From contig JABCYW010000009.1 of assembly GCA_013289985.1 (NCBI GenBank), forward strand, positions 1-64,000: a stretch of DNA of 64,000 nt, given 5' to 3'. Positions 46,114 through 63,007 of the stretch are shown one piece after another; the stretch's first letter is position 1, and each line of letters begins with the position of its first letter. The translations under genes were made by a program, and so were the position numbers. The notes beneath the pieces were generated by a model. It saw nothing but the letters and a program-made list of their open reading frames with translations. It made no database searches and was not told the origin of the DNA. The DNA comes from Betaproteobacteria bacterium. GTDB taxonomy: Bacteria; Pseudomonadota; Gammaproteobacteria; Burkholderiales; Burkholderiaceae_C.

Positions 46114-46716
46114 TCAGCGCGCGAGGGCGAGCTTGCGCGCCGGCGCCGCCACGGGAGCGGCCGTGCCGTCCACCTCGCGGTAGTACTTGGCCGGCGTGCC
46201 GAACCACACTTGGTTGTCCGGCACGTCCTTGCGCACCTGGGAGCAGGCGCCGATCTCGGCGTTCTCGCCGATGGTCACCGAAGGCATGATCACCACGCTG
46301 GCGCCGAAGCGCGACCTGCGCTTCAGGCGGCCGACGCTCTTCTCGTTGTTCTTCGTCAGGTCGGGCGTGTCCGTGACGACGAACGCGTACTTCATCACCA
46401 CTTCGTCTTCCACCACCGTGCCCGCGGAGAGCGTGCCGCGGCTGCCCATCAGCACGCGGTCGCCCAGGTCGCAGCGGTCGCGGATCTCGCAGAACGACGT
46501 GAACGAGCAATCCTCGCCGATGCGAACGTCCCGCCCGATCTTCGTGTAGGTGCCGATCTTCGTGCGCGCGCCGATGCGGGCTCCGGCCTGCACCATGGCG
46601 TAGTCCTCCAGCACGACGCCGTCGGCCAGCGCCACGCCGTCCTCGACGATGCAGAAGCGGCCGATCTTGACGCCGGCGCCGAGCGTGGCTTGGGGGGAAA
46701 CGTAGGAACCATGCAT
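46114..46716 (-). CDS. Left-handed beta-helix (hexapeptide) acyltransferase
   Basis: This 200-residue protein consists mainly of hexapeptide repeats (VSPQATLGAGVKIGRFCIVEDG, IGARTKIGTYTKIGRDVRIGEDC) with a final NQVWFGTPAKYYREV segment, as in WbbJ/FdtC-like acetyltransferases that modify amino-sugar nucleotides. The likely catalytic histidine is not obvious in the usual place. Start at 46716 with AAAGGA before it. It follows the LpxD-like gene by 11 bases and probably acylates a sugar made by the nearby DegT aminotransferase. Confidence 0.83.
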   Translation of the reverse strand: MHGSYVSPQATLGAGVKIGRFCIVEDGVALADGVVLEDYAMVQAGARIGARTKIGTYTKIGRDVRIGEDCSFTSFCEIRDRCDLGDRVLMGSRGTLSAGTVVEDEVVMKYAFVVTDTPDLTKNNEKSVGRLKRRSRFGASVVIMPSVTIGENAEIGACSQVRKDVPDNQVWFGTPAKYYREVDGTAAPVAAPARKLALAR

Positions 46717-46727
46717 GGCGAGTCCTT

Positions 46728-47669
46728 TCAGGAGGGAAGCTTGGGAACGCCCGAGTGGCTGGCCTTGGTGTCCATGAGCCGGGCGGGAACGCCCGAGACC
46801 ACGACACCTTCCAGATCCACGTTGCGGGTGACGACGGCGCCAGCTCCGACGACCACACCGCGCGCGAGCGCGATGCGCGGCCTGAGCACGCTGGCGGAGC
46901 TCAGGAAGGCCCGGTCGCCCAGGCGGCAGTTGCCGGCGATCGAGACGTTGTTGGCGAAATGCACATGGGCGCCGATGACGCAGCCGTGGCCGATCTTGGT
47001 GCCGTGCGCAACCACGCAGCCGTTGCCCAGCGAGGTGACCTCGTTGACCGAACCGCGCACCACGGTGACGTCCGTGCCGATGAAGCAGTCGTCGCCGATG
47101 CGCGCGCCGCCGATCTGGGGCTGCACGATGCGCTCGCCGGTGGCCGGATCCCACACCCAGGCGACGCCGGTGGCGCCGATCGTGGAATGGGATTCGATGG
47201 TCACGCGATCTCCGATCACGCAGCCGTCCTTGACGACCACGTGCGAATCGAAGTGGCAGCCGGCACCGATGGCGCAGTCGCCGATCACGCAGTACGGGCC
47301 GATCACCGTGCCCGCGCCGATGCGCGCGCCCGGGGCGATCACGGCGGTTGGATGGATCGTCGTCCGCTCGGCGGCGTCCGCGGCGAAGAAGTGGCGCATC
47401 AACAGGTAGAAGGCGCGCTGGGGATGCGCCAGCACGACCTGGCAGGCGATGTCGCCGGGCAGGCGCGCGGCGGTCAGGACCGCGATGTCGGCGTGTTCGA
47501 ATGCCGGCGCGTCGTCGCCTTCCCAGAAGTACAGCCCGTGCGGCTCCTGCGCGAACAGGCTGCAGAAGCGCAGCGGTGCCAGGTCCCGGCGGCCGTGCAC
47601 CGCGAACGGAAGCCCCAGCGCGTCGAGCGCGGCCAGGACGTCGTCGAGCTTGAAGTCGCCGTTGGTCAT
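46728..47669 (-). CDS. LpxD-like hexapeptide N-acyltransferase
   Basis: This 313-residue protein has an N-terminal globular domain (about 1-100: YFWEGDDAPAFEHADIAVL) and a long left-handed beta-helix (about 105-290: TTIHPTAVIAPGARIGAGTVIGPYC). The histidine-containing VAHGTKIGHGCVIGAH is the active-site type segment of LpxD. It lacks the lipid A operon context of true lpxD (skp-lpxD-fabZ) and sits instead among sugar genes, so a role in acylating an amino sugar for glycosylation is more likely. Starts seven bases after the glycosyltransferase stop. Confidence 0.82.
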   Translation of the reverse strand: MTNGDFKLDDVLAALDALGLPFAVHGRRDLAPLRFCSLFAQEPHGLYFWEGDDAPAFEHADIAVLTAARLPGDIACQVVLAHPQRAFYLLMRHFFAADAAERTTIHPTAVIAPGARIGAGTVIGPYCVIGDCAIGAGCHFDSHVVVKDGCVIGDRVTIESHSTIGATGVAWVWDPATGERIVQPQIGGARIGDDCFIGTDVTVVRGSVNEVTSLGNGCVVAHGTKIGHGCVIGAHVHFANNVSIAGNCRLGDRAFLSSASVLRPRIALARGVVVGAGAVVTRNVDLEGVVVSGVPARLMDTKASHSGVPKLPS

Positions 47670-47676
47670 GGGCAGG

Positions 47677-48678
47677 TCAGGCGAGGGCCGACTCGCGTGC
47701 CGGGAGGGTCGCCGGCGCCGTGGCCGGATGGCTGGCCAGCAGGCGCAGCCAGAACGGCCGCCAGGCCGCGCACAGGCGCTCCAGGTCGGCGCCATGCGCC
47801 TGGATCAGGTCGAAGGATTCGTTGATCACGGCGTCGTCCTCGCCGAAGCGCTCCAGGCACTGGTGCACGTTCCACTTGATCGCGGTGACGACGTCGGCCG
47901 ACGTGATGCGGCCTTCGCGCCAGGCGAGCAGGGCGGTGGTCACCCAGGCCAGCGACGACACGCGCCCGATGCCGGACTTCATCTGGTGCGTGGTCTGCGC
48001 GGCATGCTGGCGGAAGATGCCCAGGTGGTCGCGCACGATCACCAGCGGGGCCGTCTGCACCGCGGTCAGCACGAAGCCGACGTCGAGCCAGCCGTAGTAC
48101 GACAGGTCGTCCACCGGCGGGCGCGGGTACGTGCGCGCGCCCTCGGCCGACATCACCATGTGGGTGAACTCGCCGATCCAGTTGTTGCAGGTGGGCACCA
48201 TCGTGCGGAACAGCGTGTCGGCATCGACCGGCACATGCAGCAGCGGGCTTTGCGCGACGACCTGCGGCTGGTTGATGCCCATCACCGGACGCGTGTCGCC
48301 GTGGGTCACCCAGCGTCGGCTGATGGACGCGCTGAAGCGGCCCGCCTGGTGCGCGGCCATGTGGCTGCGGTAGAACTCGGGGAAGACGACGTCGTCGTCG
48401 AGCTGCAGGTGCACGAACGGCGAGCTGCCGGCCCAGCGGTCGATCAGCGACTGGTGGTTGAGGCGGGCGTTCTTCGGGCCGCGCACGACCTGCAGGTCCA
48501 GCGACTTCGACAGGTCCCCGTAGTGGCCGGCCGCGATCAGGTGCGTGATCTCGTCGTCGGGGCTGTCGTCGGAGAGGATGACCCGGAAGTCGCGGAAGGT
48601 CTGGCGCGCGAGGCCGAGCAGCGTCTCGCCCAGGAACTCCTTCTTGTAGGCGGGAATGAGGGTCGTGATCGTCGGCAT
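47677..48678 (-). CDS. Family 2-type glycosyltransferase
   Basis: This 333-residue protein has a GT-A fold start (TTLIPAYKKEFLGETLLGLARQTF, RVILSDDSPDD) and the metal-binding acidic run FVHLQLDDDVVFPEF (about 100). The C-terminal half is helical without a known motif. It should transfer a sugar from a nucleotide donor to an acceptor in the cytoplasm. AAGGA precedes the ATG at 48678. First gene of the leftward three-gene unit with the two beta-helix acyltransferases; divergent from the aminotransferase across 233 bases. Confidence 0.85.
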   Translation of the reverse strand: MPTITTLIPAYKKEFLGETLLGLARQTFRDFRVILSDDSPDDEITHLIAAGHYGDLSKSLDLQVVRGPKNARLNHQSLIDRWAGSSPFVHLQLDDDVVFPEFYRSHMAAHQAGRFSASISRRWVTHGDTRPVMGINQPQVVAQSPLLHVPVDADTLFRTMVPTCNNWIGEFTHMVMSAEGARTYPRPPVDDLSYYGWLDVGFVLTAVQTAPLVIVRDHLGIFRQHAAQTTHQMKSGIGRVSSLAWVTTALLAWREGRITSADVVTAIKWNVHQCLERFGEDDAVINESFDLIQAHGADLERLCAAWRPFWLRLLASHPATAPATLPARESALA

Positions 48679-48911
48679 GCGCGTCCTTGGGCCTTTGCGG
48701 GGCGATGTGGCGATGATCCGCGCACTGCCCGGCGGGCGATCGATGGAACTGCGGGCCCGATGGGCGCCAGATCGCGTCTTCGGCGGCCCGGGAGGGGCCA
48801 ATTGGCGGGCGTCGCCCCGGCATTTCCGCGGATCGCCGCGCGACCCGCCCGGCCATCATTCGGACACGGACGCGTGGCTCTGCGCGCCGCCGCCGAATGA
48901 AGGACGCACCC

Positions 48912-50081
48912 ATGGCCGCCAGCAAGTCGATCTACGTGACCCAGCCCGAACTGCCTCCGCTGGAGGAGTTCATGCCGTACCTGCGCCAGATCTGGGACAC
49001 CCGCGTGCTGAGCAACGGCGGGCCGTTCCACCAGATGCTGGAAGCGGCGCTGTGCGAGTACCTGGGCGTGAGGCACATCAGCCTGTTCACGAACGCGACC
49101 ATCGCCCTGGTCACGGCGCTGCAATCGCTGCGCATCACCGGCGAGGTCATCACCACCCCGTATTCCTTCGTCGCCACCGCGCACTCGCTGATGTGGAACG
49201 GGATCAAGCCCGTCTTCGTCGACGTCGATCCCGTGACGCTCAACATGGACCCCGCGAAGATCGAGGCCGCGATCACGCCGCAGACCACGGCCATCATGCC
49301 GATCCACTGCTACGGCACGCCGTGCGACGTCGATGCCATCCAGCGCATCGCCGACGACTACAACCTGAAGGTGATCTACGACGCCGCGCACGCGTTCGGC
49401 GTGCGCCGGGAGGAAGGCGGCGAGATGCGCAGCATCCTCGAGCACGGCGACCTGTCGGTGCTGAGCTTCCACGCCACCAAGGTGTTCAACACGTTCGAGG
49501 GCGGGGCGATCATCTGCCCGGACGCGAAGACGAAGCAGCGCATCGACCACCTCAAGAACTTCGGCTTCGTCAACGAGACCACCGTCGTCGCCACCGGCAT
49601 CAACGGCAAGATGAGCGAGTTCAACGCCGCGCTCGGCCTCGTCCAGCTCAAGCACGTGGACGACGCCATCGCGCGCCGCGGCGTCATCGCCGGGCGCTAC
49701 CGCGAACTGCTCGCCGGCGTTCCGGGCGTGCGCACGCTGGTGCCGCTGGCCGGCGCGACCCCCAACAATTCCTATTTCCCGATCCTGGTCGACTCGCGCC
49801 ATGCGCTCGGCCGCGACGGCCTGTACGGGCACATGCGCGACGAAGGCATCGTGGCACGGCGCTACTTCTACCCGCTGATCTCCGACTTCCCGATGTACCG
49901 CGGCCTGCCGTCGGCAGACTCGTCGAAGATGCCGGTCGCCCGCGCCGCGTCCGACCAGGTGCTGTGCCTGCCGATCTATCCGGCGTTGCAGGATGCCGAT
50001 GTCGAGCGCATCGCGGGCCTGGTCCGCGAATCGGCCGTGGCGAAGGTCGAAGCCCACGTGCCGATGCTGCTGGCGGCCTGA
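48912..50081 (+). CDS. DegT/DnrJ/EryC1-family sugar aminotransferase
   Basis: This 389-residue PLP enzyme has the Schiff-base lysine K190 in LSFHATKVFNTFEGG, cofactor aspartate D157 (YDAAHAFG) and the phosphate-binding FTNATIAL. It aminates a keto-deoxy-sugar nucleotide, as VioA, FdtB or PseC-type enzymes do; which sugar is unclear. The start at 48912 has AAGGA seven bases upstream; the ATG at 48897 does not. With the acyltransferases encoded just to the left it could make an N-acylated amino-deoxy sugar, a common flagellin glycan. Dehydratase genes for the precursor are not in the window. Confidence 0.9.
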   Translation: MAASKSIYVTQPELPPLEEFMPYLRQIWDTRVLSNGGPFHQMLEAALCEYLGVRHISLFTNATIALVTALQSLRITGEVITTPYSFVATAHSLMWNGIKPVFVDVDPVTLNMDPAKIEAAITPQTTAIMPIHCYGTPCDVDAIQRIADDYNLKVIYDAAHAFGVRREEGGEMRSILEHGDLSVLSFHATKVFNTFEGGAIICPDAKTKQRIDHLKNFGFVNETTVVATGINGKMSEFNAALGLVQLKHVDDAIARRGVIAGRYRELLAGVPGVRTLVPLAGATPNNSYFPILVDSRHALGRDGLYGHMRDEGIVARRYFYPLISDFPMYRGLPSADSSKMPVARAASDQVLCLPIYPALQDADVERIAGLVRESAVAKVEAHVPMLLAA

Positions 50082-50140: not shown

Positions 50141-50872
50141 TCAGGCGACCTCGAGCTCCGCCACCGGCTTGGAAAACGCGAAGAACGGCTCGCGCCCGTT
50201 GCAGCCGAAGTCGAGCGGATCGAAGTCGCCCAGCATCTGCGCGTGCGGCACCAGCGAGCCGGTCAGGCCGGCCGCGTTGAACAGCGCGCCGATGTCGCCG
50301 CCGAACAGGCGCACGTGGTCGACCTGGCCGTAGTAGATCGTCGCGAAGTCCTCCGACGGCGGCGTGGCCAGCTCGAACGTGTGCTTGAGCGCCGGCGCGT
50401 AGGGCGTCTGCGCGATCAGCACGCCGCCCGGCGCGAGGCAACGCGCGAATTCGGCCAGCGCGCGCTCGGGGTGGCGCACGTGCTCCAGCAGGTGATTGGC
50501 GATGATGAGGTCGAAGCGGCCGTCCTCGAAATCGATGGCCTCGGCGTCGACGCGGCGGATGTCTGCGCGCGCCGGGAACAGGTCGCCGCGCACGTACTCG
50601 GCCGGTTGGCAGGCCAGCAGGCGCGGCTCCAGCGAGGCTTCGGGCGCCAGGTGGAGGATGCGCTTGCCGGCCAGCTGCTCGGGCAGTCCCGCCGCGGCCA
50701 TGTACATCCACAGGTGGCGGTCGCGGTCGTTGCAGCCGCAGTGCGGGCAGCCGTAGACGGCCAGGTCGGAGCCCACCGTGCCCATCAGCACCATGAAGGG
50801 ACTGCGCTGGGCGCGTGCCGGGTGGGGCACCCAGGCGTCGACGTTGTTCTCGCAGAGGCAGCAGAAGGCCAT
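50141..50872 (-). CDS. SAM methyltransferase with N-terminal zinc-ribbon-like cysteines
   Basis: This 243-residue protein starts with two cysteine pairs (FCCLCENN and YGCPHCGCNDRDRH) suited to bind zinc. A class I methyltransferase domain follows: RILHLAPEASLE, DAEAIDFEDGRFDLIIANHLLEHV with the typical ANHLLEH, and APGGVLIAQTP. Such proteins occur in polysaccharide and flagellar glycan clusters and may O-methylate sugars. Last gene of the leftward series from 57084; 31 bases after the glycosyltransferase stop. Confidence 0.85.
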   Translation of the reverse strand: MAFCCLCENNVDAWVPHPARAQRSPFMVLMGTVGSDLAVYGCPHCGCNDRDRHLWMYMAAAGLPEQLAGKRILHLAPEASLEPRLLACQPAEYVRGDLFPARADIRRVDAEAIDFEDGRFDLIIANHLLEHVRHPERALAEFARCLAPGGVLIAQTPYAPALKHTFELATPPSEDFATIYYGQVDHVRLFGGDIGALFNAAGLTGSLVPHAQMLGDFDPLDFGCNGREPFFAFSKPVAELEVA

Positions 50873-50903
50873 GGGAATTCCTGGACGTGAGTTTCGGTCG
50901 GGG

Positions 50904-52400
50904 TCAGGCGGCGAGCGCCATGTCCTGCATCGGATGCAGCACGCGCTTGGGCGCGGCCAGCGCGGCGGCGCCCACCGGCGTTGGCTTGCCCAGCGCCTGG
51001 CGCACCGCGGCGGCGCGGGCCGCGCGCTGCGGCTCCGCCGGATGCAGCACGATCGCGCCGCGGCGCAGTTCGGGGAAGGCCGACAGGGCGCGGTAGCCCA
51101 TGGTCTCGAGCAGCTGCGGCTCCCAGCCGGCCCGGTACCAGGCGAGCAGGGCGGCGTCGGTCGCGGCGGCGGCGGTCTCGTTCGCGGGCCACCACACCAC
51201 GCGGCGCGTGGGGTGCGCGGCGGCGTCGGCGGCCAGCGCGGCGAATGCGTCCACCGGCATGTTGGCGGCCAGCAGCAGCTCGGCCTCGCCCTGCGGCGTG
51301 TCGCGCCAGCCGGGGTTGGCGAGCGCCAGTTCCATCACCCACGTGAGGCCTTCGCTGGCGGGCGCGCCGCGCAGGGTCGTTGCGTCGGTCTGGCGCAGCA
51401 CCTCCAGCAGGCCCGCGATGTCACGGCGCGGGGCGGCGGTCTCGTCGGTGTCGGGCTTCAAGGTGCCGTCGCCGTTGAGGATGAACGACTCCATGTTCAT
51501 CGCGATCTTGGCGAGCAGGTTGGTGCGCGCCAGGTGCAGGTAGCGCAGCGGGCCGTAGCGGGACGGCACCGGCTCGCGCAGCGCGTCGGCGGCGCGGTTG
51601 CGGCCGGGGCGGGCGGACTGGGCGTAGTCCAGCGCCACCTCGGTGAGCGTGGCGGCGTCGAGGCCCTGCCCGTAGACGGCGCGCTCGTACAGCTGCTGCC
51701 ACTGGAAGCCCGCGGTGGGCACGGCCGCGTGGCGGTTCTTCACGAGGTAGGCCTGCCAGCCGTTGATGACCTTGGCCGACAGCTGCTCCACGCTGCGCAC
51801 CGGCAGGTGCACCACGCAGACGCCCTCCATCGTGCACACCGGCGGCCGCGTTCCGTCCGCGAGGTGCACGTTGTGGTTGCCCTGCTCGATCACCAGACGC
51901 TCGTCGTCGCGCGGGTCGCGACGCACCACGGCCTTGTAGTACGTGGGCTCCTCGCGGCGGCGGCGATCGGGCATCGCGCCCAGCGGGTCGGCCAGCACGC
52001 GCGACGGGTCGACCTCGGCCGCGGGCAGGTGGGTGCGCCACGGCAGCAGCACGGCCTGGCCGGCGGGCACCGCGGCGAAGGCTGCGTCGAGCGCGGCGCG
52101 CGAGGGCGCGTGGATGAACTCGTCGGCGTCGAGGAACCACACCACCTCGGGATTGAAGACCGGCGCCACCTTGCGGTAGACGTGGGTGACCTTCTCCGAC
52201 TGGAAGTAGCCGAAGATCGGGTCGTCGAACACCACCAGCGGCAGGCCCTCGCGCTGCAGCGAGGTGAGGATCTCGCGGGTGCCGTCCGTGGAGCCGTTGT
52301 CGATGACGACCAGCAGGTCCAGCAGGCAGAGGTTGTGGCGCACGAAGGCCTCGACGATGTCGGCCTCGTTCTTGATCATCGCGATCGCGAGCGTGTTCAT
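50904..52400 (-). CDS. Glycosyltransferase family 2-like protein (GT92/DUF23-like)
   Basis: This 498-residue protein has the opening AIAMIKNEADIVEAFVRHNL, DNGSTDGT and the metal-binding VVWFLDADEFI (about 88-98) typical of GT2/GT92-like enzymes that start with K-N-E. The C-terminal 200 residues, Ala-rich and helical, are not recognised and may be a partner-binding region. Probably adds a sugar to the glycan made by this island. It starts 28 bases after the fusion gene at 52429-53934. Confidence 0.83.
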   Translation of the reverse strand: MNTLAIAMIKNEADIVEAFVRHNLCLLDLLVVIDNGSTDGTREILTSLQREGLPLVVFDDPIFGYFQSEKVTHVYRKVAPVFNPEVVWFLDADEFIHAPSRAALDAAFAAVPAGQAVLLPWRTHLPAAEVDPSRVLADPLGAMPDRRRREEPTYYKAVVRRDPRDDERLVIEQGNHNVHLADGTRPPVCTMEGVCVVHLPVRSVEQLSAKVINGWQAYLVKNRHAAVPTAGFQWQQLYERAVYGQGLDAATLTEVALDYAQSARPGRNRAADALREPVPSRYGPLRYLHLARTNLLAKIAMNMESFILNGDGTLKPDTDETAAPRRDIAGLLEVLRQTDATTLRGAPASEGLTWVMELALANPGWRDTPQGEAELLLAANMPVDAFAALAADAAAHPTRRVVWWPANETAAAATDAALLAWYRAGWEPQLLETMGYRALSAFPELRRGAIVLHPAEPQRAARAAAVRQALGKPTPVGAAALAAPKRVLHPMQDMALAA

Positions 52401-52428
52401 GTCGGTTGTCGTCTCCGTGTCTGGAACG

Positions 52429-53934
52429 TCAGATCAGCGCGGCGGCTTCGTCTTCGGCGAACTGTTCGTCCGGGTCCAGGCCGCCGAAGTCGGCGCGCAT
52501 CGTGCGTGCGGTGGTGCGCTCGCGCGGGGTCGTCGCGATCTTGCGCAGCGCCACGCGCATGAACGCCGCGTTCTCCTTGCCGCAGGGCTGCACGTTCGCG
52601 TCCAGCCACTGCGACTGGGCGACCTCGAAGCGGTGCTCGAACCAGCCGAGGTACCAGAACCAGTCGGTGTAGTAGATCCACGAGTTCTCGTTGAGCGCGC
52701 GCAGGTGCGTGGGATCCTGCCAGGCCGTCAGCGCCTTCTCGTACGGCACCTCGATGGAGAACGCGCCGCCCACCTTCAGCAACGCCAGCGCGTTGGTCAT
52801 CAGCATGGGCAGGTCGGGTACGTGCTCCAGCACGTTGTTGGCGTAGATCAGCTCCAGCGAGCCTTCCTCCAGCAGCACCGTGCCGCCCATGCGCGTGGGC
52901 GCGGCGTGGGGCAGCGTCACCGGCCGGCCGAGGTCCAGCACCAGGTCGGGCTCGGCGCGGTCGAGGATGTCGATGTTGAGCCAGGTGGGCTTGTAGTCCT
53001 TGCCGGAGCCCAGGTTGATCGCGCGCGGGCGCCACGGGCCCGGATCGCGGACGCGGTCGAAACCTTGCTGGAAGCCGCCGGCGAAGGCCAGCAGGTCGGC
53101 GTACTGCTCGATCGGATCGTGCGCGGCGTCGGGCGTGCGGAACGCGGCCAGGCGCTTGCGTGCTTCCTCGTAGAAGGCCTCGCTGCCGAAGTGCAGGCGG
53201 AACCATTCCTCCACCTGCTCGGGCAGCCACAGCACCGAGTCGACGAACGCCGGCGCCGGATCGGTGGTGGGCGTGTACTCGGAGATCACCGGCGTGCCCA
53301 GCGACAGGCAATGGAACGCGCGCGCCTGCTCGAAGCGGTTGCTCTCGTAGTAGTGGCAGTTGAGCACCGCCTTGGCGCGGCCGATGAACTCGTCGCGCTC
53401 CGGGCCGTAGACCGGCGCGTCGAACGTGGCCACGTTGAAGCCGGCGGCCTCCACGCGGGCGATGAACTGCTGGCGGCGCGGGTTCATGCTGCCGAAGAAC
53501 AGCAGGTCGATGTCGCGCTCCTCCAGCGGCAGCGCGGGCTTGTCGAGGTACGAGGCATAGCCGAACGGCACGATGGGCACGTCGGCCGGATCCGCCGCGT
53601 AGGCCGGCACGTTGGCGGCGTCGTAGTCGACCACGGCCGAACGGCGCAGCAGCGCCAGGTAGTCGGGGCTCACCGGGGCGCCGCCCTGGCCCAGCTGCTC
53701 CAGGTTCACGAACACGCAGGCGTTGCGTTCCTGCCAGTCGGCCGGGAAGCCCAGGTGGGCGCCGAAGACGAAGTTCACCGCGTCCTCGCGCAGCCGGTTC
53801 TTGGCCATCGTCACCTTCGCGCCCAGCCGGCGGAACATGTGGCGGAAGTAGCGCGCCTGGTCCAGGAAGCCGAGCGAGTGGACGTAGCCGGCCGGCTGGA
53901 TGATCGCCAGGTGGATTGCGGGAGGGTTCTTCAT
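52429..53934 (-). CDS. Glycosyltransferase-methyltransferase fusion protein
   Basis: This 501-residue protein appears to be two enzymes in one chain. The first part (about 1-310) is a GT-B-like, CgeB/YkvP-type glycosyltransferase with DLLFFGSMNPRRQQFI and ARAFHCLSLGTPVISEYT near its end. The second (about 320-480) is a SAM methyltransferase domain with INLGSGKDYKPTWLNIDI and LIYANNVLEHVPD. A single protein could both attach and methylate a sugar. I start it at 53934 (MKNPPAIHLAIIQPAG); the in-frame ATG at 53988 precedes an atypical sequence. The 151-base gap upstream separates it from the next gene in the series. Confidence 0.82.
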   Translation of the reverse strand: MKNPPAIHLAIIQPAGYVHSLGFLDQARYFRHMFRRLGAKVTMAKNRLREDAVNFVFGAHLGFPADWQERNACVFVNLEQLGQGGAPVSPDYLALLRRSAVVDYDAANVPAYAADPADVPIVPFGYASYLDKPALPLEERDIDLLFFGSMNPRRQQFIARVEAAGFNVATFDAPVYGPERDEFIGRAKAVLNCHYYESNRFEQARAFHCLSLGTPVISEYTPTTDPAPAFVDSVLWLPEQVEEWFRLHFGSEAFYEEARKRLAAFRTPDAAHDPIEQYADLLAFAGGFQQGFDRVRDPGPWRPRAINLGSGKDYKPTWLNIDILDRAEPDLVLDLGRPVTLPHAAPTRMGGTVLLEEGSLELIYANNVLEHVPDLPMLMTNALALLKVGGAFSIEVPYEKALTAWQDPTHLRALNENSWIYYTDWFWYLGWFEHRFEVAQSQWLDANVQPCGKENAAFMRVALRKIATTPRERTTARTMRADFGGLDPDEQFAEDEAAALI

Positions 53935-54085
53935 GGATCCGGGCTCCGGGATTGAATCGGGGACCACCCCGGACGATGGAGCGGTCATGGAACCGATTCT
54001 GAAGAGCGCCGCGCCCGGCCAAGCCCCGAAAAGGGCCGGTGGGGGCCGGCTATTCCCGTCCGGACTTGAGCCCGCGATCGCGGGC

Positions 54086-55150
54086 TCAGTGGGCCTGGCG
54101 CAGCTTCAGGGCTTCGAGCGCGCGGCCGGTGCCCTCGTACAGCACGATCAGGTTGCGGGCGGCCAGCGTGGAGCCGCGGCCGGCCACCGAGCCTTCGAGA
54201 TCCGGCTGCTCGCCGATCTCCAGGCAGCGCCGCCACGCGGACTCGATCATCGGCAGCAGCTCCCCGGCGCGCGCCGGCTCCTCCGTGGCCCAGTCCAGCA
54301 GCAGGTCGCCGAGCGCGAAGAAGAAGTCGGGCGAGTGGCTCCAGGCGGCCATCGCGCCTTCGGCCAGCAGCACGCCCCGGGCATGCTGGCGGCACTTCTT
54401 CAGGGCATGGATCTCGCGCACCAGCCGGTCGTGGTGCCAGCCCGGCGTGGTGCCGGCCAGCGTGACGCTGGCGCCGCTGGCCTCCTCGCAGGCCCTCGAC
54501 CGGGCGAAGTGCGCGCAGGCGTCCGCATAGCGTTCGTAGACGTCGTGGTCCTTGCCGATCTGGTAGTGCAGGTAGGCGTCGTCGGGCGCCTGCGCCAGCG
54601 CGCGCGCGAGCAGCTCGGCGTTGCGGCCGGCCTTGGCCTTGAGCGCGTCGGCGCGGTAGCCGTCGTGCGCCAGCACCGTGGGCAGGCGCCTCACCGGCAG
54701 CGCGTGCTTCGGCTGTTCGTGCACGTGGCCCGCGTAGCGCACGCCGCGCGGCAGCACGCGCGGCAGCCAGCTGGGCGCCAGCGACACGCCGATGGGGGTG
54801 TCGAACTGGCTGTCCACGCGCAGCGTGCCCACGAAGTCGGGCAAGGTGTGGCGCAGCTGCAGCAGCTCGATGCCGGCCTCGGCGATCCATTCGTCGGCGT
54901 CGACCACCACGGCCCAGTCGGCGTCGGCCAGGGCCAGCGCGGCGTTGCGGGCGGCGGCGAAGTCGTCGCACCACGTGAAGTGGCCCACGCGCGCGCCCGC
55001 GGAACGCGCGAGCGCGACCGTGGCATCGGTGGAGCCGGTGTCCAGCACCACGAGCTCGTCGACGCAGTTCGCGACGCTCGCGAGGGCGCGCACGATGCGC
55101 GCCGACTCGTTGCGCGCGATCATGACGAGCGCGACTCTGTACAGGCTCAT
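54086..55150 (-). CDS. Family 2 glycosyltransferase with TPR-like C terminus
   Basis: This 354-residue protein has a clear GT2 domain (VALVMIARNESARIVRALASV, VVLDTGSTDAT, VVVDADEW, about 1-230). A helical repeat-like C terminus (about 170-350) resembles tetratricopeptide repeats, which may hold the acceptor protein. The start at 55150 overlaps the stop of the GT41 gene as ATGA, so the two are co-translated and probably act on one acceptor. Stop at 54086. Confidence 0.88.
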   Translation of the reverse strand: MSLYRVALVMIARNESARIVRALASVANCVDELVVLDTGSTDATVALARSAGARVGHFTWCDDFAAARNAALALADADWAVVVDADEWIAEAGIELLQLRHTLPDFVGTLRVDSQFDTPIGVSLAPSWLPRVLPRGVRYAGHVHEQPKHALPVRRLPTVLAHDGYRADALKAKAGRNAELLARALAQAPDDAYLHYQIGKDHDVYERYADACAHFARSRACEEASGASVTLAGTTPGWHHDRLVREIHALKKCRQHARGVLLAEGAMAAWSHSPDFFFALGDLLLDWATEEPARAGELLPMIESAWRRCLEIGEQPDLEGSVAGRGSTLAARNLIVLYEGTGRALEALKLRQAH

Positions 55151-57084
55151 GAAGCGTTCGCCTCCAGCGCCTGCGGCGCGAGTCCGGCGAGGTGCCGTTC
55201 GTGCATGCGGGTCAGCAGGGCGTCCATGGCGCGCGCCAGGCGCTCGGCATCGAACAGCGGCAGCTGGCGGCGGTTCACGTCGAGGTGGGCCTTGATGCCG
55301 CGCAGCGTGTCGGGCTCGTTGGCCAGCGCGGTGGCGAGCTCCACGTAGTCGGCCTCGCTGCGGCACGCCAGGTCGCCCAGGCCGCAGGCCGTGACGAGGC
55401 TGGCCGCCACGCGCGACGCGAAGGTCGGGCCAGGCACGGTGAGCACCGGCACGCCGGCCCACAGCGCCTCGCTGGCGGTGGTGTGCGCGTTGCAGGGCCA
55501 GGTGTCCAGGAACAGGTCGGCCGAGCGCAGGCGGGCGATGTGGCTGGCGAGGTCCAGCTTGGCGGCGAAGAACACGCGTTCGGGCGCGACGCCGCGGGCG
55601 GCGAGTTCGCGCAACAGGTTTTCCCTGGCGTGCGGATTCCAGGCCAGCATCCACAGCACCGTGCGCGGCGCGCCGGCGAGGATGCGCGACCACAGGTCCA
55701 GCATGTTGGGAGACAGCTTGTAGGTCTGGTTGAAGCAGCACAGGACGACCGCGTCCTCCGGCAGGCCCAGCTCGGCGCGCGAGGGGCAGGGCGGCAGCGG
55801 GCGGGCGGCGTCGTTGGGCTGGTAGCAGCCGTCCAGCTGCGCGATCTGCTCGGTGTAGTTCGCGGCGTGCGCGAGCGGCGTCGTGACGCGGTCGCCGATC
55901 ATGTAGTCGATGAAGGGCGCGCCGGTGGTGGCCGGGTAGCCGAGGTAGGCGGCCTGCACCGGCGCGGGCCGGTAGGCCATCAGCTCCATGCGGCTGTCGC
56001 GGGTGTGGCCCTTCAGGTCGATGAGGATGTCGATGCCGTCCTCGCGGATGCGGTTCGCCACCGCGCAGTTGCCGGTGTCGCGGATATCGACGTAGTGCTC
56101 GCAGGCGGCGCGCACGCGGCGGGCGGTCTCGGAGTCGTCGTCGCGGCTGTGCGAATACAGGAAGGTCTCGAAGCGGCGGGTGTCGCGGCGCTCCAGCAGC
56201 TCGGTCATCAGCACCGCGGTGGCGTGGTGGTAGAAGTCGGACGACAGGTAGCCCACGCGGATGCGGCCGGGGCGGCGCGGCCCGGGCGCGGGCAGCGGCA
56301 CGATGGCGCTGGTCAGGCCGGCCACTCGGCGCTCGCCCAGCCGGCGCTGCTGTTGCGGCGTCGATTCGATGGAGATCAGCGCGAACGGCAGCAGCAGCCG
56401 CGCGGTCTCCGGGTCGTCGCGGTCGACGGCCTCGAGCAGCGCGCGGGTGTCGGCGGCGTCCTGTTTCCACTCGCAGGCCTGGCGATTGGTCTGCACCACC
56501 AGGCTCAGCGCGAGCGCGCGCGTGGCGCCGTCGTCCAGCGAGATGGCGGTGCGGAAGCATTCGGCGGCCTCCAGGTCCATCGCCATGTCCATGAACGCGA
56601 GGCCCAGGCGGTAATGGACGATGGCCGAGTCCACCTTCAGCGTCAGCGCCTTGAAATAGGCATCGACGGCCGGGCGCGGCTGGCGCGTCTGGAACAGCGC
56701 GTTGCCGAGCGCGTTGTAATAGTCGTGGTCGCGCGGCGCCTCGTCCGACAGCGCCTGCAGCGCGCGCAGCGCGTCCGCGGGACGCGCCATCTGCAGCGCC
56801 ATGTCGGCCGCCACGCGGCAGGCGACGGAACTCGTGCGGTCGAGTTCGCAGGCGCGCAGCGCGTCCTCCAGCGCGGCGGTGTACTGGCCGAGCGCCATGC
56901 GCGAGCGCGCGAGGTTCATCCACATCAGCGAGTCGGCGGGCGCCAGCACGGTGGCCTGCTCGAACTCGAGTACCGCCGCGTCCCAGCGGCGTGCACGGTG
57001 CGCGTGCAGGCCGGCCTGGCGGTGGGCCTCGGCACGGCGGGCGCTGGCGGAGCCGGAAGGGGTATGGCTGGCGGAATTCCTCAT
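55147..57084 (-). CDS. O-GlcNAc transferase-like (GT41) protein glycosyltransferase with TPRs
   Basis: This 645-residue protein has N-terminal tetratricopeptide repeats (about 15-190) and a C-terminal GT41 catalytic domain matching human OGT block by block. VGYLSSDFYHHATA has H287 at the OGT H498 position. It is followed by LGYPATTGAPFIDYMIGD, FNQTYKLSP with K456 at the OGT K842 position, and FLDTWPCNAHTTASEALWAG. All donor-site blocks are present. Such enzymes modify Ser/Thr or Asn of proteins. Starting 285 bases from the first flagellin gene on the opposite strand, the obvious candidate substrate is flagellin; the donor may be the sugar made by the DegT-acyltransferase genes. Confidence 0.9.
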   Translation of the reverse strand: MRNSASHTPSGSASARRAEAHRQAGLHAHRARRWDAAVLEFEQATVLAPADSLMWMNLARSRMALGQYTAALEDALRACELDRTSSVACRVAADMALQMARPADALRALQALSDEAPRDHDYYNALGNALFQTRQPRPAVDAYFKALTLKVDSAIVHYRLGLAFMDMAMDLEAAECFRTAISLDDGATRALALSLVVQTNRQACEWKQDAADTRALLEAVDRDDPETARLLLPFALISIESTPQQQRRLGERRVAGLTSAIVPLPAPGPRRPGRIRVGYLSSDFYHHATAVLMTELLERRDTRRFETFLYSHSRDDDSETARRVRAACEHYVDIRDTGNCAVANRIREDGIDILIDLKGHTRDSRMELMAYRPAPVQAAYLGYPATTGAPFIDYMIGDRVTTPLAHAANYTEQIAQLDGCYQPNDAARPLPPCPSRAELGLPEDAVVLCCFNQTYKLSPNMLDLWSRILAGAPRTVLWMLAWNPHARENLLRELAARGVAPERVFFAAKLDLASHIARLRSADLFLDTWPCNAHTTASEALWAGVPVLTVPGPTFASRVAASLVTACGLGDLACRSEADYVELATALANEPDTLRGIKAHLDVNRRQLPLFDAERLARAMDALLTRMHERHLAGLAPQALEANAS

Positions 57085-57246
57085 GATCGGGCCAGTCTAG
57101 GGTGAAGTCCGGGCGCGATCGTTCCGATAACAGGCCCAGTCACGGTGCAGTTCGCGGGAACGCGCCGTGCGGCGCGGAGGGCAACGTCCGCGTAGCTGGC
57201 GGAGCGCGATGCACAAGGCCATGGCGGCGGTCACGCGAAGAGCCGA

Positions 57247-57285
57247 TCAAAAAGTCCTCAAGTCTTCCGATCGGTGCTCCGAAAA
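57247..57285 (+). promoter_or_regulatory. Candidate sigma-28 promoter region of flagellin gene 1
   Basis: Two overlapping matches are visible: TCAA (57247-57250)-N15-TCCGATCG (57266-57273), and TCAA (57258-57261)-N16-TCCGAAAA (57278-57285). Either gives a leader of roughly 75-90 bases to the start at 57370. The 285-base gap 57085-57369 must also contain the leftward promoter of the GT41 gene, which I could not place. Confidence 0.5.
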
Positions 57286-57369
57286 CCAACTCACGGCCCC
57301 TACCGTTTTTCGACTTTGGGGCGAAAAACCCGGCAATCCCGCCGAATTTTGTCTCCCCAGGAGTGAATC

Positions 57370-58218
57370 ATGACTCTCTCGATCAACACCAACATCAACT
57401 CCATCGACGCACAGCGCAACCTGTCGGGTTCGCAGATGTCGCTCGCCACGTCGATGCAGCGCCTGTCCTCGGGCCTGCGCATCAACTCGTCGAAGGACGA
57501 CGCCGCCGGCCTGTCGATCGCCGAGCGCATGAATTCGCAGGTGCGCGGCATGAATGTGGCGATCCGCAACTCCAACGACGGCATCTCGCTGGCCCAGACC
57601 GCCGACGGCGCGCTGGCCCAGGTGAGCAACTCGCTGCAGCGCATGCGTGAACTGGCGGTGCAGTCGCGCAACTCCACCAACAGCTCGTCGGACAAGGACT
57701 CGCTGAACAAGGAGTTCTCGCAGCTGCAGTCCGAAATCACCCGCGTCCTGGGTGGCACGACCTTCAACGGCAAGCACATGCTCGGCTCGGACGCGACGAC
57801 GCTGAACTTCCAGGTCGGCGCCAACACGACGGCCGACGACACGGTGTCGGTCAAGACGGTGGACATGACCAAGGACACCACGATGACGGCGGTGACCAAC
57901 ACGACGACCGCCAAGATCGACTCCTCGGCCACGTCGGGCGCCATCGGCACGGTGATCGACAACATCGACAAGGCGATCAACGACGTCAACGACACGCGGG
58001 CCACCTTCGGCGCCACGCAGAGCCGCTTCGATTCGATCATCTCGAACCTGCAGTCGGGCGTCGAGAACCAGTCGGCCGCGCGCAGCCGCATCATGGACGC
58101 TGACTTCGCGGCGGAAACCGCGAACATGAGCCGCGCCAACGTGTTGCAGCAGGCCGGCACGGCGATGATCGCCCAGGCCAACCAGCAACCGCAGCAGGTT
58201 CTGACGCTCCTGCGCTGA
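57370..58218 (+). CDS. fliC: Flagellin 1
   Basis: This 282-residue flagellin has the conserved N-terminal D0/D1 helices (INTNINSIDAQRNLSGSQ, LSSGLRINSSKDDAAGLSIAERM) and C-terminal D1/D0 (ENQSAARSRIMDADFAAETANMS, then QQVLTLLR). The central region is short (about 165-200), so there is almost no D2/D3 surface domain. It is rich in Ser/Thr, which would suit O-glycosylation. It differs from flagellin 2 at only about three residues. AGGAG precedes the ATG (CCCCAGGAGTGAATC). Confidence 0.97.
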   Translation: MTLSINTNINSIDAQRNLSGSQMSLATSMQRLSSGLRINSSKDDAAGLSIAERMNSQVRGMNVAIRNSNDGISLAQTADGALAQVSNSLQRMRELAVQSRNSTNSSSDKDSLNKEFSQLQSEITRVLGGTTFNGKHMLGSDATTLNFQVGANTTADDTVSVKTVDMTKDTTMTAVTNTTTAKIDSSATSGAIGTVIDNIDKAINDVNDTRATFGATQSRFDSIISNLQSGVENQSAARSRIMDADFAAETANMSRANVLQQAGTAMIAQANQQPQQVLTLLR

Positions 58219-58359
58219 TCCGGTGGACGGCGGCGCCGCGTGAAGCGCGCCGCCAGCGCAAGCGGCCTCGCTGGAAAGCGATGCCGTTTGCGGCTTTTCC
58301 CCCTCTGTTCAAACGTGCGCTCGTTCGAGAAATCGGATGAGCGCTCGTGCATTCAGGGC

Positions 58360-58387
58360 TAAAGATTTGTCGGAAACCCCCCGATAA
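58360..58387 (+). promoter_or_regulatory. Candidate sigma-28 promoter of flagellin gene 2
   Basis: TAAA (58360-58363), 16 bases, then CCCGATAA (58380-58387), seven of eight bases matching GCCGATAA. The leader would be about 165 bases. The 342-base gap 58219-58560 otherwise holds a GC hairpin soon after the flagellin 1 stop (GGCGGCGC and GCGCGCCGCC, about 58234-58262) without a T tract, and no gene. Confidence 0.7.
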
Positions 58388-58560
58388 ACAAGGCAACAGG
58401 CTCAGCAAATCGAGCTTGGGTCCGGTGAGTGGCCAAGGGCCTGGCGGTGAACGAAAGACACCGAGCAGACCGTAGGAGCACCTGGCGCTAGGCAACCGAA
58501 CGCCAGTGCTCTTGCCGGAAAGTTTCCTCTGAAATCTCCACCTACCCAACGGGAATTGCC

Positions 58561-59409
58561 ATGACTCTCTCGATCAACACCAACATCAACTCCATCGACG
58601 CGCAGCGCAACCTGTCGGGTTCGCAGATGTCGCTCGCCACGTCGATGCAGCGCCTGTCCTCGGGCCTGCGCATCAACTCGTCGAAGGACGACGCCGCCGG
58701 CCTGTCGATCGCCGAACGCATGAATTCGCAAGTGCGCGGCATGAACGTGGCGATCCGCAACTCCAACGACGGCATCTCGCTGGCCCAGACCGCCGACGGC
58801 GCGCTGGCCCAGGTGAGCAACTCGCTGCAGCGCATGCGTGAACTGGCGGTGCAGGCCCGCAACTCCACCAACAGCTCGTCGGACAAGGACTCGCTGAACA
58901 AGGAGTTCTCGCAGCTGCAGTCCGAAATCACCCGCGTCCTGGGCGGCACGACCTTCAACGGCAAGCACATGCTCGGCTCGGACGCGACGACGCTGAACTT
59001 CCAGGTCGGCGCCAACACGACGGCCGACGACACGGTGTCGGTCAAGACGGTGGACATGACCAAGGACACGACGATGACGGCCGTGACCAACACGGGCAGC
59101 GCCAAGATCGATTCGTCGGCCACCTCGGGTGCCATCGGCACGGTGATCGACAACATCGACAAGGCGATCAACGACGTCAACGACACGCGGGCGACCTTCG
59201 GCGCCACGCAGAGCCGCTTCGATTCGATCATCTCGAACCTGCAATCGGGCGTCGAGAACCAGTCGGCCGCCCGCAGCCGCATCATGGACGCCGACTTCGC
59301 GGCGGAAACCGCCAACATGAGCCGCGCCAACGTGCTGCAGCAGGCCGGCACGGCGATGATCGCCCAGGCCAACCAGCAACCGCAGCAGGTTCTGACGCTC
59401 CTGCGCTGA
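58561..59409 (+). CDS. fliC: Flagellin 2, near-identical to flagellin 1
   Basis: This 282-residue flagellin has the same layout as flagellin 1. By eye the proteins differ at one position in the first helical region (A for S in VQARNS) and at two in the centre (TNTGSAKI for TNTTTAKI). Most nucleotide differences are silent, which points to recent duplication or gene conversion. The Ser/Thr content of the central loop differs slightly, which could alter glycosylation. A weak ribosome-binding site (GGGAATTGCC) precedes the ATG. Confidence 0.97.
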   Translation: MTLSINTNINSIDAQRNLSGSQMSLATSMQRLSSGLRINSSKDDAAGLSIAERMNSQVRGMNVAIRNSNDGISLAQTADGALAQVSNSLQRMRELAVQARNSTNSSSDKDSLNKEFSQLQSEITRVLGGTTFNGKHMLGSDATTLNFQVGANTTADDTVSVKTVDMTKDTTMTAVTNTGSAKIDSSATSGAIGTVIDNIDKAINDVNDTRATFGATQSRFDSIISNLQSGVENQSAARSRIMDADFAAETANMSRANVLQQAGTAMIAQANQQPQQVLTLLR

Positions 59410-59454
59410 GCGCCGGCAAGCCGGGCGAGCGCCCGGTTCCAGCTCTGCATGAAC

Positions 59455-59488
59455 AAAGCCCCGCCTGGCGCAAGCCGGCGGGGCTTTT
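59455..59488 (+). terminator. Intrinsic terminator after flagellin 2
   Basis: AAAGCCCCGCC (59455-59465) pairs with GGCGGGGCTTT(T) (59477-59488) around an 11-base loop and ends in TTTT. It lies 45 bases past the stop. The rest of the 387-base gap 59410-59796 holds the flagellin 3 promoter and no convincing gene. Confidence 0.88.
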
Positions 59489-59747
59489 GCCTATGGGCGG
59501 CCGGCGTCCGGACGGGATCCGGGCCGGCCGTCTGGTCCAGGAAAAGGGGGGTTTGGGGGCTCATATCGGCGATTTGGCCGGCCTCAAGTATTCGCACAAT
59601 CCAATCCAACGTCTCCTACATCCAAAAGATTTCGGGGAACGCGGTCCGGAAGCACCGGCGATGAAGCGAGAGCGAAGTCGGGGTGACCAAGTACCGGGCT
59701 TGGAGGTGCGGGGCTCGAAAGGCCTGCCTGACAGCCACGCATCGAAC

Positions 59748-59773
59748 TCAAGTTCCGGCACATTCGCCGGTTG
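59748..59773 (+). promoter_or_regulatory. Candidate sigma-28 promoter of flagellin gene 3
   Basis: TCAAGTTC (59748-59755), 10 bases, then GCCGGTTG (59766-59773), compared with TAAAGTTT-N11-GCCGATAA. The leader would be only about 15-20 bases. The -10 match is weaker than at fliD or flagellin 2. Confidence 0.45.
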
Positions 59774-59796
59774 TGCCTTAGTCCTGGAGCAAATTC

Positions 59797-60648
59797 ATGC
59801 CGTTGACCATCAATACGAACATTGCTTCGCTCAATGCGCAGCGCAACCTCAACATGTCGCAGGGCTCGCTCGCGACGTCCATGCAACGGCTGTCCTCCGG
59901 CCTGCGCGTGAACTCCGCCAAGGACGACGCCGCCGGCCTCGCCATCGCCGAGCGCATGAACGCCCAGGTCCGCGGCATGAACGTCGCGGTGCGCAACGCC
60001 AACGACGGCATCTCGATGTCGCAGACGGCCGAGGGCGCGCTGTCGCAGGTCGGCAACGCGCTCCAACGCATGCGCGAACTGGCGGTGCAGGCCCGCAACT
60101 CCACCAACAGCTCGTCGGACAAGGACTCGCTGAACAAGGAATTCGCGCAGCTGCAGGCGGAAATCAGCCGCGTCATCGGCGGCACCACGTTCAACGGCAA
60201 GCACATCCTGGGCGCGGACGCGACCTCGCTGGTCTTCCAGATCGGCGCCAACACCACCGCCGACGACACGATCACGATCGCCACCAAGAACATGAGCCTG
60301 GACACGACGATCACCGCCGTGACCAATTCCTCCACCGCCGTGATCGACGCCTCGGCCACCACCGGCGCCATCGGCACCGTGATCAACAACATCGACAAGG
60401 CGCTCGACAGCATCAACGACACGCGCGCCACCTTCGGCGCCACGCAGAGCCGCTTCGACGCCATCATCACCAACCTGCAGGTGGGCGTGGAGAACCAGTC
60501 GGCCGCCCGCAGCCGGATCATGGACGCCGACTTCGCGTCGGAAACCGCCAACATGAGCCGCGCCCAGGTGCTGCAGCAGGCCGGTACCGCCATGGTGGCG
60601 CAGGCCAACCAGCTGCCCAACCAGGTGCTCAAGCTGCTGCAAGGCTGA
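59797..60648 (+). CDS. fliC: Flagellin 3, divergent paralogue
   Basis: This 283-residue flagellin keeps the same D0/D1 framework (INTNIASLNAQRNLNMSQGS, LSSGLRVNSAKDDAAGLAIAERM; C-terminal LPNQVLKLLQG). It differs from flagellins 1 and 2 throughout, especially in the short central region (KNMSLDTTITAVTNSSTAVID). It may be a minor filament component, for example at the hook-proximal end, or expressed under other conditions. GGAG lies eight bases upstream of the ATG. Separate promoter and terminator make it its own transcription unit. Confidence 0.97.
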   Translation: MPLTINTNIASLNAQRNLNMSQGSLATSMQRLSSGLRVNSAKDDAAGLAIAERMNAQVRGMNVAVRNANDGISMSQTAEGALSQVGNALQRMRELAVQARNSTNSSSDKDSLNKEFAQLQAEISRVIGGTTFNGKHILGADATSLVFQIGANTTADDTITIATKNMSLDTTITAVTNSSTAVIDASATTGAIGTVINNIDKALDSINDTRATFGATQSRFDAIITNLQVGVENQSAARSRIMDADFASETANMSRAQVLQQAGTAMVAQANQLPNQVLKLLQG

Positions 60649-60844: not shown

Positions 60845-60871
60845 TCAAGTTGCGCAGGCGCGCGCCGATAG
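60845..60871 (+). promoter_or_regulatory. Sigma-28 promoter of fliD
   Basis: TCAAGTTG (60845-60852), exactly 11 bases, then GCCGATAG (60864-60871): the best match in the window to TAAAGTTT-N11-GCCGATAA. The transcript would start about 20 bases before the fliD start. Confidence 0.8.
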
Positions 60872-62572: not shown

Positions 62573-63007
62573 ATGTTCACCGCTGCACATCCTTCTGCAT
62601 TCGGACGTTCCCACGGCTTCGCCAACGCGTACGCGCGCGTGGGCGTCGAGACCAGCGTCAACGCCGCGTCGGCCCACAAGCTGATCGAGCTGCTGTTCAA
62701 CGGCTTCATGGATGCGATCGCGCTGGCGCGTGGCGCCATGCAAGCCCGGCAGATCGAGGCCAAGGGCAAGGCCATCGGCCGCGCCGCCCGCATCGTCGAG
62801 GAGGGCCTGAAGGCGGGCCTGAACCTGGAGGCCGGTGGCCGCCTGGCCGCGGACCTCGATTCGCTCTATGCCTACGTCGCGCTGCGCTTGCTTGCCGCGA
62901 ACCTGCGCAACGACGAAGCCGCGCTCGACGAATGCGTGCGCCTGATCGGGCCGCTGCGCGACGCCTGGATCGCCATCGGTCCCCAGGTCGAGGCGGGCAA
63001 GCTGTGA
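62573..63007 (+). CDS. fliS: Flagellin export chaperone FliS
   Basis: This 144-residue all-helical protein has FliS features: ANAYARVGVETSVNAASAHKLIELLFNGFMDAI near the N terminus, then ARIVEEGLKAGLNLEAGGRLAADLDSLYAYV. It binds the C-terminal D0 helix of flagellin in the cytoplasm and prevents early polymerisation. Ribosome-binding site weak (CATCGCCACC-ATG). The stop overlaps a possible GTG start of fliT. Confidence 0.95.
   Translation: MFTAAHPSAFGRSHGFANAYARVGVETSVNAASAHKLIELLFNGFMDAIALARGAMQARQIEAKGKAIGRAARIVEEGLKAGLNLEAGGRLAADLDSLYAYVALRLLAANLRNDEAALDECVRLIGPLRDAWIAIGPQVEAGKL

Follow-up and report, generated by a model that had tools for sequence, protein, structure and literature searches.

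A predicted flagellin O-glycosylation island pairing a GT41 glycosyltransferase with an overlapping GmaR-like GT2 in a Burkholderiales genome

Flagellin glycosylation islands that carry a GT41 glycosyltransferase (COG3914) are known from the Enterobacteriaceae, where the available text of De Maayer and Cowan (2016, PMC4875605) gives them as 14 of 42 island types (198 strains). Two single enzymes are also close to the subject of this report. FlmG of Caulobacter, as described in part of PMC7591256, is a soluble flagellin O-glycosyltransferase with a flagellin-binding N-terminal region of tetratricopeptide repeats (TPRs) and a GT-B-type C-terminal domain. GmaR of Listeria, as covered by part of PMC9638930, is a flagellin N-acetylglucosamine (GlcNAc) transferase of 637 residues in which a GT2 domain is followed by TPR helices, a linker and an antirepressor domain, and its authors propose that the TPR recognises flagellin. 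The main text of PMC12645811 uses neither the term 'GT41' nor 'OGT'. Here we analyse a 64,000-nucleotide stretch (contig JABCYW010000009.1, positions 1 to 64,000; hereafter the window) of a betaproteobacterial genome, in which a GT41 gene and further glycosyltransferase (GT) genes adjoin three flagellin genes. We read them as a predicted cytoplasmic flagellin O-glycosylation island, with a probability of about 0.72.

The locus resembles the enterobacterial islands in combining a GT41 with a DegT aminotransferase, methyltransferases and acyltransferases (acetyltransferases there), and in having rmlB elsewhere in the genome. It differs in two respects: GT families are apparently mutually exclusive within an enterobacterial island, whereas in the window GT41 and GT2 genes overlap to form a single unit; and the enterobacterial GT41s of all but one type carry a methyltransferase domain, which in the window is instead joined to a different GT (PMC4875605, in the same available text). 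With FlmG the window's GT41 shares, by description, the order of TPR region and GT domain, but FlmG uses pseudaminic acid (PMC7591256) and the genome of the window gives a single marginal NeuB match, outside the window. The central genes are as follows.

54086..55150, minus strand: GT2, 354 amino acids, GmaR/SunS-like, with a helical TPR-like C-terminal half; ATGA overlap with the GT41 gene
55147..57084, minus strand: GT41, 645 amino acids, with a TPR part (about residues 20-190) and an OGT-type catalytic domain (Pfam and solved-chain alignment)
57370..58218, plus strand: flagellin 1, D0/D1 only, 282 amino acids
58561..59409, plus strand: flagellin 2, 282 amino acids, three substitutions relative to flagellin 1
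59797..60648, plus strand: flagellin 3, 283 amino acids
60893..62404, plus strand: FliD (FliD_N and FliD_C)
62573..63007, plus strand: FliS (FliS model)

The GT41 gene (from 57084, minus strand) is divergent from flagellin 1 (start at 57370, plus strand) across 285 bp, and its stop is overlapped by the GT2 start in an ATGA (ATG at 55150), which is consistent with translational coupling. A first-pass annotation had described this arrangement, naming a TPR-bearing GT41 divergent from flagellin 1 and co-translated with a TPR-bearing GT2, and had called the whole a flagellin glycosylation island; in these points, the genuine GT41 included, it holds up. It had also held that the flagellins lack domains D2 and D3. 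We agree, since Flagellin_N (residues 5-139/140) and Flagellin_C (196-281) are separated by only about 55 residues in all three. Flagellins 1 and 2 share 279 of 282 residues and differ by S99A, T179G and T180S, each of which involves a Ser or Thr; flagellins 1 and 3 agree at 223 of 283. Matches resembling sigma-28 promoters lie upstream of flagellin 2 (58361-58387) and FliD (60845-60871), and there are 16 in the window against 7.5 expected.

The GT41 protein matches Glyco_transf_41 at 306.6 bits (E 3.4e-91; curated cut-off 25) and has TPR_1 and TPR_2 matches above cut-off in its N-terminal region (Pfam). Among solved chains it matches XcOGT and human OGT best (about 303 bits), ahead of SPINDLY (181); like the first two it joins TPRs to a GT41 domain, and it differs from them in its genomic context, which is flagellin. 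H287 and K456 align with H218 and K388 of XcOGT, which we take to be the catalytic His and Lys important for activity; all 17 aligned GT41s have both residues. The closest named match, at 89% identity, is from Scleromatobacter humisilvae (Sphaerotilaceae, Burkholderiales).

Recurrence of this linkage was examined in 100 genomes including that of the window, 60 of them from the same family; the linkage count drew on 66. Among the matches listed, 42 family genomes had flagellin, and at least 28 of these had a GT41 (all GT41 counts being lower bounds). In at least 18 of the 42, the window's genome included, a GT41 and flagellin lie no more than 15 kb apart. Chance would be expected to bring the two so close in about 0.75 genomes among the 28 listed with both, by a rough Poisson estimate with GT41 genes counted by hand. 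Three of the GT41s were recoded as type-I-secretion-type and not flagellin-linked, leaving at least 15: in G014 and G055 the GT41 near flagellin adjoins an ABC transporter gene (tblastn with type I secretion genes), and that of G015 groups with the secretion type on the GT41 tree (support 93). The gene set is also conserved. In S. humisilvae (L008, L029) the GT41, the GT2, the GT-methyltransferase and a second GT2 lie beside flagellin in the same order, and another locus (L009) has counterparts of the methyltransferase, the DegT aminotransferase and the third GT2 at 56, 77 and 52% identity. The transferases are thus linked to flagellin beyond chance and conserved in relatives, which is what we ask of a flagellin glycosylation island. 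The first-pass annotation had considered a GT41 in this position uncommon, which neither the family counts nor the enterobacterial ones bear out; an island of this kind is common among relatives and already published, and what the window adds is a pair of candidate protein-modifying enzymes in an overlapping unit.

The three recoded cases among the 18 flagellin-near GT41s, and the presence of two more GT41s in the window's genome, one of them in a type I secretion locus, lend something to the idea that the island is a neighbour of flagellin by chance and serves lipopolysaccharide, capsule or another secreted protein. We regard that as improbable, given linkage so far above chance, a gene set kept beside flagellin in S. 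humisilvae and partly in L009, and the Ser/Thr signal in flagellin described below.

To these we added 53 further family genomes and collected 86 main clusters (FliD plus a complete flagellin), one per genome. Regions covered were at most 20 kb each, and several end at contig ends. Left out were 21 family loci without FliD, among them that of G002, whose contig is cut inside flagellin; G001 was coded as lacking GT41, its GT41 sitting on another contig that begins there. With the recoding, 10 clusters have both GT41 and GT2, 19 GT41 only, 5 GT2 only (G016, G024, G037, G055 and G143, the GT2 lying beside flagellin without a flagellin-type GT41) and 52 neither; before it the numbers were 11, 21, 4 and 50. 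Outside the family but within the order, either enzyme occurs in 1 of 21 main clusters. Ten second flagellin loci without FliD, taken as lateral, were also found, and five carry a GT41 of their own (L055, L162, L163, L164 and L165). In G037 the two enzymes are divided: the main cluster (L054) has the GT2 without a GT41, and the second locus (L055) a GT41 without the GT2. Because of this split and of the GT41-only clusters, each enzyme can apparently serve alone.

The amino acid linkage was approached by phylogenetic generalized least squares (PGLS) on 42 main clusters with flagellins of 256-299 amino acids, taking residues 136-200 as the central segment. The central Ser+Thr fraction is higher with GT41 (0.278 vs 0.247, p 0.020; recoded 0.284 vs 0.245, p 0.0012) and with either enzyme (p 0.0065; recoded p 0.0008), and under neither coding is there a difference in central Asn or in the Ser+Thr of residues 1-135 and 201-282. 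These p values are uncorrected, from twelve tests as first coded and eight after recoding; separate tests of Ser and of Thr, in the first coding, were not significant. Before the PGLS, a rank test comparing the centre between 26 loci with GT41 and 23 with neither enzyme had given p 0.0018. Since Ser/Thr is enriched in the centre, and neither Asn nor the flanks show the effect, O-linkage there is favoured. The first-pass annotation had left the linkage open between Ser/Thr and Asn; on this comparison of sequences it is probably Ser/Thr, in the central segment. Of the UDP-GlcNAc donor and Ser/Thr acceptor that characterise OGT-type GT41s, the enrichment in the presumed substrate bears, indirectly, on the acceptor.

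That the GT41 is an HMW1C-like N-glycosyltransferase (NGT) making Asn-linked glucose is still more improbable than a chance neighbourhood. The family does include NGTs (PMC4875605, available text), and the central segments of the three flagellins hold two, one and three NxS/T sequons, but the lack of central Asn enrichment goes together with an NGTferase model score of 17.9 bits against a cut-off of 1000, with the TPRs of the enzyme, and with best matches to XcOGT and human OGT in a list of 54 solved matches in which no chain is called NGT or HMW1C.

The overlapping GT2 complicates the assignment of the first step. By sequence, the solved protein nearest to it is GmaR (E 1.9e-16), followed by SunS. 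The predicted model has a mean predicted local distance difference test score (pLDDT) of 63 and is good mainly over residues 180-354 or so, the N-terminal part being of low confidence; its C-terminal half consists of antiparallel helix pairs in a TPR-like arrangement (block pLDDT about 58-95 across residues 171-354), although no Pfam TPR model matched the protein at E<=1. Foldseek places SunS/ThuS at the top (E 5.6e-10), TPR domains next and the GmaR structure at rank 21. With GmaR it shares a GT2 domain followed by TPR-like helices, and it differs in ending at 354 amino acids after the TPR-like part, with no room for a linker or antirepressor; it is therefore like the catalytic part of GmaR and not a GmaR. 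The family is sharply delimited: with a profile built from open reading frames (ORFs) of other loci, 45 of 300 family genomes match at 213 bits or more and the next best reaches 82. Because this GT2 resembles GmaR and SunS and overlaps the GT41 gene, the two overlapping genes would form a unit that encodes a pair of protein-modifying-type enzymes.

The GT2 may thus be the enzyme that modifies, and initiates on, flagellin, the GT41 acting later or at other sites. Its two best solved matches are both polypeptide glycosyltransferases (PMC9638930, in part), and it stands without a flagellin-type GT41 in the 5 of 86 clusters named above; the 19 clusters with GT41 and no GT2, and the second locus of G037 as opposed to its main cluster, speak the other way, and we hold a purely GT2-initiated pathway to be rather unlikely. 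Since the GT2 matches GmaR and SunS/ThuS and either enzyme occurs alone beside flagellins, the identity of the initiating enzyme is ambiguous, and the role of initiator that the first-pass annotation had given to the GT41 is weakened.

The cytoplasmic flagellin O-glycosylation island that we favour also includes genes for further transfer and for making the sugar. The earlier description of them was right as to the genes, all of which are real, and too narrow as to extent, the DegT, third GT2 and both acyltransferase genes lying outside 50141-60648.

46114..46716, minus strand: smaller hexapeptide-repeat acyltransferase; best NCBIfam model NeuD_NnaD, below its cut-off
46728..47669, minus strand: larger hexapeptide-repeat acyltransferase; nearest solved chains LpxD-type, also VioB
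47677..48678, minus strand: third GT2, 333 amino acids, just above the Pfam cut-off
48897..50081, plus strand: DegT/DnrJ/EryC1 sugar aminotransferase; nearest solved chain 2po3
50141..50872, minus strand: S-adenosylmethionine methyltransferase, 243 amino acids
50904..52400, minus strand: GT2 (Glyco_tranf_2_4), 498 amino acids
52429..53988, minus strand: fusion of a methyltransferase domain to a GT-like N-terminal part (weak match under the cut-off, E 0.023)

The conserved start of the GT-methyltransferase fusion is probably at 53934 (501 amino acids), and its predicted model (mean pLDDT 56.7) is too poor for use. The nearest solved chain of the DegT protein is named '4-dehydrase', with perosamine synthetases following, and the DesI model scores 300.9 bits, below its cut-off of 650. 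The best NCBIfam model of the larger acyltransferase, LpxD-type, is likewise below cut-off. RmlB is encoded elsewhere in the genome (G000:C18, E 1.3e-147). PF01973, which we take to cover the Maf flagellin transferases, gave no match in the genome, and only archaeal control genomes gave a signal. Our guess for the glycan sugar is an acylated, methylated amino-dideoxyhexose. Such a sugar resembles the viosamine glycan carried by Pseudomonas syringae flagellin.

From these genes we infer catalysis, the order of steps, the sugar and the role of the TPRs as follows. Newly made flagellin would be O-glycosylated in the cytoplasm before export, held by the TPR regions of the GT41 and the overlapping GT2. 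One of these, or each at its own sites, would add the first sugar to Ser/Thr within about residues 136-200, and the remaining GTs would extend the glycan. The aminotransferase, acyltransferases and methyltransferases would make an amino-dideoxy sugar bearing acyl and methyl groups, with dTDP-4-keto-6-deoxyglucose as the probable starting compound.

The first-pass annotation had further suggested that glycan could supply most of the filament surface in place of D2/D3. Raw counts agree, with GT41 in 22 of 46 short-flagellin but 7 of 40 long-flagellin clusters (p 0.0033; first coding 24/46 vs 8/40, p 0.0034) and either enzyme in 26/46 vs 8/40 (recoded). The association does not survive on a quick FliD tree: Pagel tests of short flagellin gave p 0.21 for GT41, 0.13 for either enzyme and 0.29 for GT2 (after recoding 0.22 for GT41 and 0.19 for either), and independent pairs were too few to decide. 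We make no claim that short flagellins go with GT41.

The two other GT41s of the genome show what else such enzymes may accompany. The second (L046:1432-15007, G000:C131) follows type I secretion genes for ABC, HlyD and OEP proteins and faces two giant Ser/Thr-rich ORFs of ALTTAQ repeats (PF20080). Among its close relatives, those in L176 and in L170, which also has ALTTAQ-like repeats, are accompanied by ABC, HlyD and OEP genes, and those in L171 and L173 by OEP only (contig ends); a more distant GT41 has all three in L174, and in L038, L067 and L069 a GT41 adjoins an ABC gene. The third (L074:8202-10595, G000:C7; 797 amino acids) has a 79% identical counterpart in S. humisilvae (L172), and its locus gave no flagellin or type I secretion match. 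Separately, two Methylococcales loci hold single giant ORFs, of 4450 amino acids (L018:7964-21313) and 3370 amino acids (L020:7982-18091). Since each single ORF scores so highly with the GT41 profile (2825 and 2509 bits, respectively), they suggest several GT41 copies per protein.

In a FastTree phylogeny of 70 GT41 rows, the group of the window's enzyme has 44 rows, 39 labelled flagellin-linked, and stands apart from the secretion-linked GT41s (forks 92 and 91, unstarred). The GT41s of the five second flagellin loci group next to it (support 84, unstarred; the fork uniting both has 100). The tree has two larger sets: one contains the secretion-linked GT41s, in two groups, and the other, to which the window's enzyme belongs, is mostly flagellin-linked. 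The pattern suggests one dedicated GT41 per exported substrate. More tentatively, and with the odds somewhat against it, each GT41 may be dedicated to the substrate it adjoins, whether main flagellin, second or lateral flagellin, or secreted ALTTAQ-repeat protein, and the window's GT41 and GmaR-like GT2 may modify one flagellin in parallel or in relay.

Several observations weigh against a flagellin O-glycosylation island as we have drawn it. The GT41 tree places 9 of the 48 rows labelled as flagellin-linked elsewhere than in the window's group, and the label has to change 8 times on it; most labels reflect the way in which the loci were collected, and in two cases a pair of rows represents the same contig. 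The recoding was carried out after the first Ser/Thr result. Neither transferase is found near 20 of the 46 short-flagellin clusters (for at least one of them, G001, only through its contig end), so that neither enzyme seems needed for D0/D1-only flagellins. The TM-scores of the GT2 model to SunS/ThuS are low (0.30-0.34), and 57085-57369, upstream of the GT41 gene, has no sigma-28-like match on the GT41 strand. Finally, GT41s 58-60% identical to the window's occur with no flagellin in the regions covered (L010-L013; L010 and L011 are short contigs). As a separate observation, the GT41s of L010, L011 and L013 adjoin similar unrelated genes in different proteobacterial bins.

The survey makes bacterial GT41 a common neighbour of flagellin in this family of Burkholderiales and provides genomic evidence for a Ser/Thr linkage in the central flagellin segment. 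Clusters with GT41 alone, with GT2 alone and with both enzymes are natural test cases for glycan initiation and for the choice of substrate by TPRs.

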